DNA of 44,739 nt, taken from IMG/VR virus record IMGVR_UViG_3300010042_000003, positions 1-44,739 of that record; one strand, written 5' to 3'. Shown here one piece after another: positions 22,609-35,117 of this stretch; positions within the stretch are counted from its first letter, which is position 1, and each line of letters begins with the position of its first letter. Made by a program: the position numbers and the translations under genes. The notes beneath the pieces were generated by a model. That model saw nothing but the letters and a program-made list of their open reading frames with translations. It had not been told where the DNA came from and searched no databases. The stretch is from a virus.

Positions 22609-23532
22609 TTACAGATTAAATTTTATTTTTATCAGATCAATTATAGAAAGGTATTCTCTAGCGTATTTAGATTCTTTATGCGTTAACTTAACTTGAGTTT
22701 CGAACTCTAGTAAGTCTCCGAAAAAGCAGCCGCAGGAGACTTTAACGGTTAAAGATTCCTTTATCTTGTATGCAGTAGTGGTACGATTCTCAGAACCAAA
22801 CCCGGTAAATAAACACCAATCGTTATTTGATTTTATGTCTGCATCCCCGTACACCTTAGCATTCCCGTACACCTTAGCATTCCCGGACACCCAGGCATTC
22901 CCGTACACCCAGGCATCCCCGGACACCCAGGCATTCCCGTACACCTTAGCATTCCCGTACACCCAGGCATTCCCGTACACCTTAGCATTCCCGTACACCC
23001 AGGCATCCCCGGACACCAAGGCATCCCCGTACACCTTAGCATTCCCGTACACCAAGGCATCCCCGTACACCCAGGCATTCCCGTACACCTTAGCATTCCC
23101 GTACACCTCAGCATCCCCGTACACCTTAGCATTCCCGTACACCTTAGCATTCCCGTACACCTTAGCATTCCCGTACACCTTAGCATTCCCGGACACCTCA
23201 GCATCCCCGTACACCTTAGCATTCCCGGACACCCAGGCATTCCCGGACACCTTAGCATTCCCGGACACCCAGGCATCCCCGGACACCAAGGCATCCCCGT
23301 ACACCAAGGCATTCCCGTACACCAAGGCATTCCCGGACACCAAGGCATCCCCGGACACCTCAGCATCCCCGTACACCCAGGCATTCCCGGACAGGTTGTC
23401 TAGTGATGATACCCACCCGCCTATTTCACCCTCTTCAGCGTATTTAGTTTTAACGGTGGCTTTAATCCTGAAAACGGTTAAGCCTAAAAAATTAATCTTC
23501 GTTTCTGTTGTTAGTTCAAAGTGTTTTTTCAT
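22609..23532 (-). CDS. Hexapeptide-repeat (left-handed beta-helix) protein
   Basis: 307 aa. After a 47-residue N-terminal segment ending GEIGGWVSSLDN come 31 uninterrupted hexapeptides of the form (Y/S)-G-(N/D)-A-(K/W/L/E)-V at residues 48-233, the signature of a left-handed beta-helix. The C-terminal part carries TTTAYK and CGCFFGDLLEF, a tail I recall from similar phage and bacterial proteins of unknown role. With 18 residues per turn the helix would have about 10 turns. There are no acyltransferase residues, so an architectural or binding role is likely. It has its own paired-operator promoter. Confidence 0.85.
   Translation of the reverse strand: MKKHFELTTETKINFLGLTVFRIKATVKTKYAEEGEIGGWVSSLDNLSGNAWVYGDAEVSGDALVSGNALVYGNALVYGDALVSGDAWVSGNAKVSGNAWVSGNAKVYGDAEVSGNAKVYGNAKVYGNAKVYGNAKVYGDAEVYGNAKVYGNAWVYGDALVYGNAKVYGDALVSGDAWVYGNAKVYGNAWVYGNAKVYGNAWVSGDAWVYGNAWVSGNAKVYGNAKVYGDADIKSNNDWCLFTGFGSENRTTTAYKIKESLTVKVSCGCFFGDLLEFETQVKLTHKESKYAREYLSIIDLIKIKFNL
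22834..23391 (-). repeat. 18-bp tandem repeat, 31 units, inside the hexapeptide gene
   Basis: 31 units of 18 bp, almost identical, varying at a few fixed positions: gtac or ggac (Tyr or Ser), att or atc (Asn or Asp), and the codon for K, W, L or E. Because units are multiples of three with no stops, all frames look open on both strands; only the hexapeptide frame is credible. The array is likely to change length by recombination. Confidence 0.95.
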
Positions 23533-23555
23533 TATTCGCTTTTTAGTTTATACTT

Positions 23556-23587
23556 CAAATGTAATACAATTTGTAATACAAAACAAA
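23556..23587 (-). promoter_or_regulatory. Promoter with paired TGTATTACA sites (site B)
   Basis: On the minus strand: TTTG (23587-23584), a 20-bp spacer, and TACATTTG (23563-23556). Two TGTATTACA 9-mers at 23572-23580 and 23560-23568 (12 bp apart) fill the spacer and overlap the -7 element. The element is almost identical to that at 31508-31539. The start codon follows after 23 bases. Confidence 0.75.
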
Positions 23588-23608
23588 TATATTTTAAAAT
23601 AAAATTAA

Positions 23609-32148: not shown

Positions 32149-33027
32149 ATGAGAAAAGCTAAAATCGATCAAAAAGCAATATTTTCAAAATTCAAAATAG
32201 ATCCGTCTTTTGATTTAATTTCGAAATATAATCCTGTAATCGCATGGTGGTCTGGCGGACTAGATAGTGCAATTGTTTGTAAACTGTGTATCGATAAATT
32301 TGGAAGAGAAAACGTAAGAATAGTTTTTATCGATACTAAAAACGAAGATCCGGATACTTATCGCTTTTTAAAAGATTGTGAAAAATGGTACGCTTTAAAA
32401 ATAGAAACTATATCTTCAAAACAATACAGCAGTATAAAAGAAGTTTGGCGGGAATTTTTATCGCTGAATGTCGCTACAGGTGCTATTTGCTCAAGCGAAT
32501 TAAAACGAGAAGTTAGAATCGCATTCGGTAAAAAAAACGCATTTAGTTATCAAGCTTTTGGCTTTGATAAAAAGGAATTGAAACGCGCTAATGGTATGCT
32601 TAAAAATTATTATTTCATAAAACCTATTTTTCCATTAATTGAAAAAGGTTATTCTAAACAAAATTGCCTCGATTTATTAAATTTCGCAGGTATAAAAATA
32701 CCCGTAGTCTACTCTTACGGATTTCACAATAACAACTGTTTTAGAACTGGATGCGTACAGGGCGGGGTAGGATATTGGCAAAAAATGAAATTGGATTTCC
32801 CAGATAAATTCGATGATATGGCGCTTATGGAACATGAGTTAACTAATGAAAAAGGTATTCCCGTAACTATCCTAAAGGATCAGTCTAAAATTTCAAAAGG
32901 CCTGGTATTTTTAAAACCTCATCCAGACTACCCGGGCGTTAAAGATATATCTATGATGAAAGGTGTAACTATAAAACCGCTTGCTGAATGTAACGGTTTC
33001 TGTAATAAAGAAAACTTTCCATCATGA
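32149..33027 (+). CDS. PAPS-reductase-like PP-loop protein
   Basis: 292 aa. The PP-loop SGGLDSA at residues 35-41 (after IAWW) and VFIDTKNEDPDTYRFL identify the PAPS reductase / adenine nucleotide alpha-hydrolase superfamily. Cysteines in GAICSSELKRE, CFRTGC (about 197-202) and CNGFC (about 281-285) could bind a cluster or take part in sulfur transfer. It overlaps the cytosine methyltransferase start by 4 bp, so the two are co-translated. Phage members are usually uncharacterised; DndC-like DNA sulfur chemistry is possible but unproven. The DNA looks more A/T-rich than the methyltransferase gene. Confidence 0.82.
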   Translation: MRKAKIDQKAIFSKFKIDPSFDLISKYNPVIAWWSGGLDSAIVCKLCIDKFGRENVRIVFIDTKNEDPDTYRFLKDCEKWYALKIETISSKQYSSIKEVWREFLSLNVATGAICSSELKREVRIAFGKKNAFSYQAFGFDKKELKRANGMLKNYYFIKPIFPLIEKGYSKQNCLDLLNFAGIKIPVVYSYGFHNNNCFRTGCVQGGVGYWQKMKLDFPDKFDDMALMEHELTNEKGIPVTILKDQSKISKGLVFLKPHPDYPGVKDISMMKGVTIKPLAECNGFCNKENFPS

Positions 33028-34370
33028 GACACGGCTCTTTATTCAGCGGCACGGGGGGATTTGATCTCGCAGCTCAGTGGACGGGTTGGGAGAATGTTTT
33101 TCATTGTGAATGGAATCCTTTCGGACAAAAAATATTAAAATATTACTGGCCAAACGCCGCAAGTTATGACGACATCACAAAAACAGACTTTACCAGATAC
33201 AGAGGGAAAATTGACATTCTTACAGGCGGATTCCCCTGCCAGCCATACAGCACAGCAGGAAAGCGACGAGGTAAAGAAGACGATCGCCACCTCTGGCCGG
33301 AAATGCTTAGAGCAATTCGGGAAATCCAGCCTAAATGGGTCGTGGGCGAAAACGTTTCCGGTATTATTAGTTGGGATGGCGGGCTGGTATTCGAAGAGGT
33401 GCAAACTGATTTGGAAACTGAAGGTTACCAGGTACAACCGTACGTACTTCCAGCTGCAGGCATCGGCGCACCGCATAAAAGAGAAAGAGTCTGGTTTATT
33501 GCCTACCGTGCAGACGCAGGGATTAAAAGTATGCAACGATCAGGGGAAAACGGAATTCATGGATTTGAAACTTCTTCCCACACCACAAGCGATAGACGGG
33601 AACGGTTCGGGGCGGGATCTTCGCCTGAAGACAGGCAACAGAGATCCGCAGAGTCCGGGGAGTTGGCGCGGCGATCTGAAGGATTTTGCGCACCTGGGTT
33701 TGCTTCCGACACCAACGGCTTCGGAGGGCAGAGAAACCCCGGGGTCGGGAGTTCCTTTTGTTACAGCGACAGGAACTGTCAGGCGCCGGAACTCGGACGG
33801 TACATCATCTCAGATGGGCCTGATAGCAACGGTAAAACACATGCTACCAACCCCAACGGCACAGGACTTCAAACGCCGGGGGCCGAACAGCAGACAGCAG
33901 GGCCTCAGCAATACGGAGAACTGGCTACACCTGCTACCAACACCAACGAACTCAATGGTGACCTTTCAGGACTTCATACAAGCGGGATTTCACAGCAGCA
34001 AGCGGCCTATTTACTCGGAGATCAAGCGGCCGTCCTTGTTGCCGACACCGACGGCAACTTCGGATGCGAAAGGGGGTTGCATCCGGACAGATCCGAAGAG
34101 ACAAAACGACACGTTAGCCCATGCGATACACGCTTATACAGGCGGGGAGACTGGGAAAAGTTCCCAACTCAATCCGGCGTTTGTTCTGGAAATGATGGGC
34201 TTTCCGCCAGACTGGACACTGCTGCCCTTCTTAACGGGCAAAAAGCACGTGGAAACTGGAAGCCTTTCAGCAAATGGCGAGCAGAATCAATAAAAGCCGC
34301 CGGGAACGCCATAGTTCCACAGGTAGCTTACCAGATATTCAAAGCAATAGAAATGTATCAAAAATTATAA
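33024..34370 (+). CDS. dcm: DNA (cytosine-5) methyltransferase
   Basis: 448 aa. Motif I: SLFSGTGGFDLAA. Motif IV: FPCQPYS with catalytic C72. Motif VI: ENVSG (E109). Motif VIII region: GIGAPHKRERVWFIAY. Motif X: GNAIVPQ (427-432). Between about residues 175 and 400 lies a low-complexity region with recurring A(S/D)TN-G and TNPNG segments in place of a normal recognition domain. This is exactly where a second long frame (33166-34293) overlaps. It methylates cytosine in DNA, probably to protect against host restriction. The gene symbol is generic. Confidence 0.9.
   Translation: MRHGSLFSGTGGFDLAAQWTGWENVFHCEWNPFGQKILKYYWPNAASYDDITKTDFTRYRGKIDILTGGFPCQPYSTAGKRRGKEDDRHLWPEMLRAIREIQPKWVVGENVSGIISWDGGLVFEEVQTDLETEGYQVQPYVLPAAGIGAPHKRERVWFIAYRADAGIKSMQRSGENGIHGFETSSHTTSDRRERFGAGSSPEDRQQRSAESGELARRSEGFCAPGFASDTNGFGGQRNPGVGSSFCYSDRNCQAPELGRYIISDGPDSNGKTHATNPNGTGLQTPGAEQQTAGPQQYGELATPATNTNELNGDLSGLHTSGISQQQAAYLLGDQAAVLVADTDGNFGCERGLHPDRSEETKRHVSPCDTRLYRRGDWEKFPTQSGVCSGNDGLSARLDTAALLNGQKARGNWKPFSKWRAESIKAAGNAIVPQVAYQIFKAIEMYQKL
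33166..34293 (+). CDS. Nested +1-frame protein inside the cytosine methyltransferase gene
   Basis: 375 aa, completely contained in the methyltransferase gene in the +1 frame, with no stop over 1128 nt. It is not random: it has ATSGRKCLEQFGKSS near 41-55, LIWKLKVTRYNRTYFQLQAS near 81-100, and six spaced LLPTP-type motifs (about 111, 136, 179, 226, 256, 291). It ends with LNPAFVLEMMGFPPDWTLLP (335-354), which resembles the motif-IX-adjacent segment of C5 methyltransferases. I recall homologous sequences from Bacteroidota elements. It could be a partner or recognition subunit. Expression is not proven. Confidence 0.65.
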   Translation: MTTSQKQTLPDTEGKLTFLQADSPASHTAQQESDEVKKTIATSGRKCLEQFGKSSLNGSWAKTFPVLLVGMAGWYSKRCKLIWKLKVTRYNRTYFQLQASAHRIKEKESGLLPTVQTQGLKVCNDQGKTEFMDLKLLPTPQAIDGNGSGRDLRLKTGNRDPQSPGSWRGDLKDFAHLGLLPTPTASEGRETPGSGVPFVTATGTVRRRNSDGTSSQMGLIATVKHMLPTPTAQDFKRRGPNSRQQGLSNTENWLHLLPTPTNSMVTFQDFIQAGFHSSKRPIYSEIKRPSLLPTPTATSDAKGGCIRTDPKRQNDTLAHAIHAYTGGETGKSSQLNPAFVLEMMGFPPDWTLLPFLTGKKHVETGSLSANGEQNQ

Positions 34371-34373
34371 ATT

Positions 34374-34586
34374 ATGAAAAAGCCGATTAGTAAAGTAAAG
34401 TACGGACTGGAAAATTTCTTGTGCGGTTCATGTAGTACCGGAATTGTTCAGGTGTTAACTGTTTCATCAAGGGGTACTTTTACACAAAAAGTTAACGGTT
34501 GTCTGGATTGTAAAACCGAATACGGTTTGCTTCAGGCAGCGCGATTAGAGAAATGTCCAGTCAATAAACCTACTTTTTACGCATAG
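34374..34586 (+). CDS. Zinc-ribbon-like small protein
   Basis: 70 aa with CxxC pairs at C17/C20 (CGSC) and C43/C46 (CLDC), 22 residues apart, a typical zinc-ribbon spacing. It lies 3 bp after the methyltransferase stop. It probably binds nucleic acid or a protein partner; the function is unknown. Confidence 0.65.
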   Translation: MKKPISKVKYGLENFLCGSCSTGIVQVLTVSSRGTFTQKVNGCLDCKTEYGLLQAARLEKCPVNKPTFYA

Positions 34587-34622
34587 TTATGAGGTGTGAA
34601 AAACTTGATAAAAATTAAGTCT

Positions 34623-35117
34623 ATGAAAGGTAAGATAATACTTGATGCCTGTTGCGGAAGTAAAATGTTTTGGTTTGACAAAACTAATCCTAACACCTTA
34701 TTTGCCGACGTAAGATCAAAAACACATACTTTGTGCGATGGGAGATTATTAGAGATTTCCCCGGATGTTGAGCACGATTTTAGAAATATGCCTTATCCAG
34801 ATAACAGTTTTAAAATGGTGGTGTTTGATCCACCGCATCTTTTGAAATTAGGTAAAAATAGTTGGATGGCTAAAAAATACGGTATCTTAAACCCTACATG
34901 GGAAATAGATTTAAAAGCCGGGTTCGATGAATGTATGCGGGTTTTAGAACCTTTTGGTACTCTGATTTTCAAGTGGAACGAAAACCAAATAAAAATAGGA
35001 CAGGTTTTGAAATTAATCCAATACGACTATAAGCCTATCGTCGGGCACCGTTCCGGCAAATCTGGTGATACGCACTGGTTAGTTTTTATGAAAGGCTTAC
35101 AAAATGGAAAAGCTTAA
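34623..35117 (+). CDS. Class I SAM-dependent methyltransferase (DPPH type)
   Basis: 164 aa from the ATG at 34623; an in-frame GTG at 34596 is possible but less likely. Motif I-like ILDACCGSKMFWF at residues 5-17, FADVRSK as an acidic loop, MVVFDPPHLL with DPPH at 69-72, and the C-terminal HRSGKSGDTHWLVFMKG all match a common phage methyltransferase family. The DPP-type motif suggests methylation of an exocyclic amino group (adenine N6 or cytosine N4), but the substrate is not certain. It overlaps the next gene by 14 bp. Confidence 0.85.
   Translation: MKGKIILDACCGSKMFWFDKTNPNTLFADVRSKTHTLCDGRLLEISPDVEHDFRNMPYPDNSFKMVVFDPPHLLKLGKNSWMAKKYGILNPTWEIDLKAGFDECMRVLEPFGTLIFKWNENQIKIGQVLKLIQYDYKPIVGHRSGKSGDTHWLVFMKGLQNGKA

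Follow-up and report, generated by a model that had tools for sequence, protein, structure and literature searches.

A phage cytosine methyltransferase gene with a nested +1 reading frame that very probably encodes a partner subunit

Results

Organization of the locus

The window, which is the whole virus record analyzed here (44,739 bases), contains two long open reading frames (ORFs) lying one within the other on the + strand. The outer ORF (33024–34370, frame 0) encodes a protein of 448 residues, with matches to Pfam DNA_methylase and phrog_363. The nested ORF (33166–34293, +1 frame) encodes a protein of 375 residues, with a match to phrog_1008. The two products, the putative subunits of one enzyme, will be referred to as alpha and beta.

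Alpha begins with a catalytic core carrying motifs I–VIII (residues 1–166; 33024–33521), as located by alignment with residues 14–181 of HhaI and by a confident model. A low-complexity middle (33561–34151), probably a linker, has block-mean pLDDT values of about 31–51, and its frame is kept open. Motif X, GNAIVP (residues 427–432; 34302–34319), lies close to the C-terminus among confidently predicted helices, and its Asn428 and Pro432 are invariant in 83 alphas. In the +1 frame, the N-terminal region of beta (33166–33495) overprints the alpha core. It is followed by a recognition-like region (33496–34062) with six LPT[PV] starts, delineated by the repeat starts, repeats in the DNA and substitution rates, and then by the motif IX-like segment LNPAFVLEMMGFPPDW (beta residues 335–350; 34168–34215). 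The first-pass annotation had placed this last segment in the +1 frame only and GNAIVP in frame 0, and the ORF listing bears it out. The motif numbers I–X are those of the literature; they are assigned to these segments with the help of the HhaI alignment and the description in PMC3404938.

Upstream, a PAPS reductase-like gene (32149–33027, + strand; phrog_424, E 9e-47) shares four bases (ATGA) with the start of alpha, and such a gene is also found near the methyltransferase of Bacteroides phage BS-TP4. Directly 3′ of alpha is a 70-residue ORF (34374–34586, + strand) with two CxxC pairs and no Pfam match, and shortly 3′ of alpha is a second DNA methyltransferase-like gene (34596–35117, + strand; phrog_954, E 5.6e-78). 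Elsewhere in the window (22609–23602), long ORFs overlap on opposite strands (307 residues on the – strand, 278 on the + strand and 183 on the – strand).

Predicted structure of the outer protein

The catalytic core (motifs I–VIII) is present in alpha by Pfam, by HhaI sequence and by HhaI fold. Pfam DNA_methylase matches residues 1–175 (E 1e-47), HhaI aligns in sequence with residues 3–171 (E 3.1e-25), and phrog_363 matches residues 1–445 (E 1.4e-70). The AlphaFold2 model, computed with an alignment of 83 rows (omitting loci L118–L124, L110, L112 and L114), has high confidence over most of residues 1–175 and at the C-terminus, where the block-mean pLDDT from residue 421 is 70, 91 and 95. For the middle, residues 181–410, it is about 31–55.

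A search through the PDB with this model finds HhaI structures as the best rows. The comparison with 2i9k has a Z score of 23.9 and an rmsd of 2.1, with 201 of 327 residues aligned (HhaI 12–324, model 1–448), which leaves about 120 HhaI residues unaligned. These are probably the recognition part, as judged from the ranges that the fold tool reports. The model shows an HhaI-like core and a closing C-terminal helix, and no folded recognition domain is modelled before motif X. The first-pass annotation had named, as a result that would count against a split enzyme, a confidently modelled outer product whose recognition domain is complete; no such model emerged.

Frame 0 of the window lacks motif IX, and by pattern so does alpha's own chain in all 77 uncut window-like loci (described below). 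The alpha segment running over the same DNA in frame 0, WEKFPTQSGVCSGNDGLSARLDTA (34152–34223), is itself conserved in the 83 alphas, and Trp377, Phe380, Pro381, Thr382, Asp391, Gly392 and Leu397 are nearly invariant.

The nested protein

Beta matches phrog_1008, named 'DNA methyltransferase' (E 8.5e-35), best over residues 15–190. The beta protein has no match in Pfam, NCBIfam or PDB sequences, and a profile of 86 betas has none in PDB sequences. Structure prediction of each product, as suggested in the first-pass annotation, was informative for the outer protein (HhaI-like core, disordered middle) but poor for beta alone (pLDDT 56.8, pTM 0.24; alignment without L118–L124, betas more than 90% alike thinned first). 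A fold search with this poor model gives nothing above Z 3.3, and neither the model nor its search is used here for or against any fold. Since neither sequence nor fold comparison matches beta to a solved C5 recognition domain, its role is assigned from the homology to single-chain enzymes and from motif IX.

The consensus of beta over 86 relatives has a conserved N-terminal region, several LPTP(T)AxD repeats, and the C-terminal sequence TGKTSQLNPxFVxEMMGFPPDWTELPF. Most columns of the motif IX-like segment are nearly invariant in the 86 betas, and Pro347 and Trp350 are invariant.

Conservation of the overlap

A tblastn search finds 56 phage records. Genes 56 and 57 of Paenibacillus phage Bloom have the same overlap and are both annotated as cytosine methyltransferase; the annotation of Bacteroides phage BS-TP4 has the outer gene only. 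Further relatives were taken from IMG/VR (182, of which 80 were kept) and from 41 genome contigs, which, going by record titles, are mostly from Bacteroidota, with a few from Firmicutes, Alphaproteobacteria and Bdellovibrionales. Among 124 loci gathered by beta similarity (window included), the nested frame overlaps an outer methyltransferase in 122, in the +1 frame every time, and its stop precedes the outer stop in 111 of those 122. The two exceptions are L117, without an outer hit, and L121, which is broken in the outer frame.

Several individual loci deviate in other ways. In two from Bacteroides, alpha is interrupted and beta is intact: alpha of L110 (2915–4100) is broken by stops both in its middle and immediately ahead of motif X, and that of L112 (2915–4150) by stops in its middle. 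These stops reflect either decay or a split into further pieces. The outer ORFs of L111 and L113 have the same extent as those of L110 and L112. In L099 (2834–4200) the frames are shifted, with beta running into motif X and motif IX in the third frame, from sequencing error or decay. In L390, alpha continues in frame 0 into an IX-like segment and ends without motif X.

As a check independent of beta, two sets of loci were chosen by the alpha core alone and set beside a conventional and a Saroj-chosen set, up to 80 loci per set, and those cut by contig ends were dropped (3 window-like, 4 Acinetobacter-phage-like, 2 conventional and 1 Saroj-chosen). The first motif pattern was too strict: 12 apparent misses were inspected, and most have a variant segment (PPNW, MMWPLGW, FMGWPEWW). 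The pattern was loosened after these misses were seen, and the same loosened patterns were applied to the conventional set. In the window-like set (80 loci), the beta-type motif IX is in an open +1 frame in 76 of 77 uncut loci, and 75 of the 77 have motif X in frame 0 together with IX in +1. For the Acinetobacter-phage-like set (80 loci) the beta-type IX is in +1 in 66 of 76 uncut loci; by pattern the other 10 lack the +1 motif, one of them being a frame-0 fusion. Conventional IX in frame 0 is found by pattern in none of these 77 and 76 loci. The control set of conventional enzymes (Streptococcus phage Javan362 relatives, 80 loci) has conventional IX in frame 0 in 62 of 78 uncut loci and beta-type IX in +1 in 0 of 78. 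In the set chosen by the single-chain protein of phage Saroj (78 loci), beta-type IX is in frame 0 in 36 of 77 loci and in +1 in 10 of 77, with neither placement by pattern in 31 of 77.

Nine annotated phages, all but Lc-Nu picked from hits to a beta protein, were read in three frames. Six have the nested form with motif X in frame 0 (Acinetobacter ABMM1, Burkholderia BcepC6B, Microcystis Mae-JY24, Salmonella S9-5, the ctgrD200 podovirus and Lactobacillus Lc-Nu), and Komagataeibacter phiKX2 has the nested form with a motif X that is not clear. In Lc-Nu, the nested beta sits in ORF40; ORF41 was considered as a tandem partner and is, by eye, unlike beta.

Constraint on the two frames

Chance does not account for the overlap. 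When the outer protein is held fixed, the +1 frame is open over outer codons 48–165 in 0.12% of codon-usage randomisations, and in 11% of permutations of the gene's own codons. When the beta protein is held fixed instead, the outer frame of the window never stays open across 257 codons (0 of 5000 for each kind of randomisation), and across 77 loci the median is 0 open outer frames.

Substitution rates at outer codon positions 1/2/3 were obtained from 8 locus pairs, of which two come from Alphaproteobacteria/Micavibrio loci that are close relatives, after out-of-phase blocks and blocks shorter than 12 bases were dropped. The rates are 0.079/0.030/0.153 upstream of the overlap, 0.043/0.020/0.126 where the core is overlapped, 0.205/0.078/0.050 across the recognition region, 0.135/0.025/0.072 in the last 150 bases of beta, and 0.136/0.057/0.309 past the beta stop. 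Since outer position 1 is beta position 3, the constraint moves from alpha to beta and back to alpha along the gene.

Within the core, outer-synonymous changes were permuted among same-codon sites, with duplicate cores removed. The observed changes are milder for beta than the permuted ones in the window-like set (71 pairs, 1462 changes; z 4.5; 7 new stops against 27.2 expected) and in the Acinetobacter-like set (33 pairs, 648 changes; z 4.1; 1 new stop against 9.5 expected). The effect is also seen in codons 2–44 of the Acinetobacter-like loci, where beta can begin at the alpha start (z 2.7). Upstream of the overlap the same permutation gives z 0.7, and in conventional enzymes z -0.1, neither of which is a clear effect.

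These data bear on the reading in which alpha by itself is the whole enzyme, the nested frame being a side effect of an unusual, repetitive recognition region. Most annotations do carry the outer gene alone, and the outer frame is open throughout. In the recognition region, however, outer position 3 is the slowest rather than the fastest, and this region is disordered in the outer model. Moreover, by pattern motif IX is missing from frame 0 in all of the uncut window-like loci and all but one of the Acinetobacter-like loci. We regard this reading as hardly credible.

Single-chain and tandem relatives

In some actinophages the same parts are found in one chain. Saroj gp68 (463 residues) and Derg gp4 (461 residues) contain the core, LPTP repeats, an MMG-type segment (MMGWPAGW in Saroj, MMMLPAGW in Derg) and GNGV, and Mycobacterium phage Ramsey 69 is a single chain in the three-frame reading. 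Saroj gp68 matches both phrog_363 (E 4e-77) and phrog_1008 (E 1.1e-62). The alpha profile aligns with its residues 1–186 (probability 99.9) and the beta profile with residues 242–431 (probability 97.2, E 4.4e-11). Tandem forms are found as well. In Mycobacterium phage Kampy, gene 78 is the core and gene 77, in the +1 frame, has the repeats, IX and X; Arthrobacter phage RedFox 42/43 is also a tandem split. Where the core ends in Saroj and in Kampy, the +1 frame still resembles a piece of the beta N-terminal region (PTSGMTRNG or PTSGMTRSG). This resemblance hints that the overlap is old.

Beta might instead be a separate protein with another function, for example an inhibitor or an anti-defence factor, written by chance over a methyltransferase gene. 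It has no solved relative, and nothing in the aligned part of Saroj corresponds to its N-terminal region. Against this, single-chain methyltransferases contain the matches to phrog_1008 and to the nested profile, correctly ordered ahead of motif X, and an alpha lacking an in-frame IX is nearly always paired with a +1 beta. A separate function is very improbable.

The probable start of beta

Of 114 mapped loci, 78 have a +1 ATG no more than one codon away from where the beta ATG stands in the window. In the Acinetobacter-like set, an ATG is present four bases past the alpha start in 75 of 80 loci, mostly as ATGAATGAG. The scan for this set included the pattern MNELALFA, which fixes the amino acids but not the choice of codons. 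No clear ribosome-binding site was seen by eye before the alpha or the beta ATG in the window. The conservation of the ATG suggests separate initiation of beta rather than frameshifting.

A programmed frameshift would fuse the frame-0 core to the +1 recognition region and motif IX in a single chain, and the fused chains of actinophages indicate that a joined form can work. The shift required is +1, however, whereas -1 is the common kind, and the beta ATG is conserved as described above. In addition, the constraint on beta begins ahead of any point at which a shift would be useful, and the frameshifted chain would lose motif X, which most loci retain in frame 0. Frameshifting is very improbable.

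Candidate recognition modules

Between L013 and L073, whose cores are 95.4% identical in DNA, the ends of beta align, and the middle gains, loses and exchanges whole repeats. Beta length differs by at least 25 residues in 69 of 172 pairs with cores at least 90% identical, some contigs recurring among these pairs. The sequence QDFKRRGPNSxQQGL or a near form is present at different slots in 20 of 192 betas, the Acinetobacter-like betas in this survey having been picked by motif. This 15-residue module is found at different slots in betas of Bacteroidota, Firmicutes, Alphaproteobacteria and Bdellovibrionales. As the locus scans used beta patterns that include TPTAQDFK, the sharing of this module owes something to how the loci were chosen, but the residues that follow the pattern do not.

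A consensus for C5 recognition domains, P(STCA)PT(ILV)(TASV), located 10–50 residues before motif IX, is given in PMC2413257, and LPTPTA of beta resembles it. By this resemblance in sequence, each LPTP repeat may be a recognition unit of that kind.

A broader reading is that this is an ancient, widespread and near-fully overlapping gene pair, in which the +1 frame encodes an interchangeable specificity subunit. Phages would gain, lose and swap modules opening with LPTPxAxD while both frames stay open, giving a multi-target or re-targetable methyltransferase, and the nested, tandem and fused forms would be one lineage. We hold this reading tentatively, with a slight lean against it.

Discussion

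Both frames of this locus are conserved and constrained, the methyltransferase motifs are divided between alpha and beta, and homologous single-chain and tandem versions exist. It is very probable that the locus encodes a two-subunit C5-cytosine DNA methyltransferase, produced from one stretch of DNA in two frames and assembling into one active enzyme. Alpha, from frame 0, would hold AdoMet and carry out the chemistry with motifs I–VIII, with motif X at its end and its middle serving as an unstructured linker. Beta would be translated in the +1 frame from its own ATG and would supply the small domain, comprising the recognition region of LPTP-type repeats and motif IX. We infer that the two chains form a complex that methylates DNA and reads its target through the LPTP modules.

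The first-pass annotation had offered two possibilities, a complex of the outer and nested products in which the middle of the outer one acts as a linker, or a chain joined by frameshifting. The outer model, the constraint on the nested frame and the single-chain relatives lend good computational support to the complex. Frameshift joining is not supported, given a shift of +1 and not -1, the kept ATG, the upstream constraint and the loss of motif X. Standing against the two-subunit enzyme are the poor model of beta by itself and its lack of a solved counterpart, the alpha stops in L112 (in the middle) and L110 (in the middle and before motif X), where beta is intact, and the 10 of 76 Acinetobacter-like loci in which the pattern found no +1 motif.

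If the two-subunit enzyme is correct, many phage annotations of a 'DNA cytosine methyltransferase' describe half an enzyme, and the subunit that chooses the target lies in the +1 frame, often unannotated. This would matter for studies of expression, for predicting methylomes and for counting overlapping genes. The overlap is on the same strand and near-complete, with products that are likely related in function and are both measurably constrained, and the fused and tandem relatives allow the order of events to be inferred. If the modules are recognition units, they would provide a natural system for retargeting cytosine methylation.

Comparison with known systems

The small gene of M.EcoHK31I, a two-polypeptide C5-methyltransferase (YGGCCR), is nested in the large gene in another frame, and the alpha and beta genes likewise overlap in different frames (122 of 124 loci). 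Our plasmid searches returned no EcoHK31I-like relatives from Enterobacteriaceae.

As described in PMC3404938, split C5 enzymes are active as two polypeptides, and M.EcoHK31I (Lee, Kam and Shaw 1995), called naturally split in PMC3439449 as well, has motifs I–VIII and X on the large polypeptide and IX on the small one. Alpha (I–VIII and X) and beta (IX) resemble it in motif placement. On the other hand, the predicted recognition domain of M.EcoHK31I is in the large subunit according to PMC3404938, whereas the constrained recognition-like region here is in beta, with LPTP repeats. M.AquI, by the same account, is also one C5 enzyme naturally in two polypeptides, but its small subunit has both IX and X, while motif X here is in alpha (34302–34319) and not on the subunit that bears IX. 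Kampy 78/77, with IX and X together in Kampy 77, corresponds to an AquI-like form of the present family.

Among phages, beta is a member of phrog_1008 (E 8.5e-35), and the two-gene annotations of Paenibacillus phages (Bloom 56/57) record the same overlap; no mechanism is attached to either. The single-chain actinophage methylases (Saroj gp68, Derg gp4, Ramsey 69) have the core, LPTP repeats, IX-like segment and X, but with all parts in one frame and one chain. In methylase genes of the ShiLan type, a second protein is likewise hidden in another frame, which PMC11855218 describes as an out-of-frame HNH endonuclease brought by mobile insertion. There it is an inserted endonuclease; here it is likely a partner subunit written over the core itself. 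A search of a library of open-access papers returned no published description of the nested phage pair. The bacterial precedent for a split enzyme, M.EcoHK31I, is already known; new here are the breadth of the arrangement, the recognition region in beta, the exchangeable modules, and the tandem and fused relatives.
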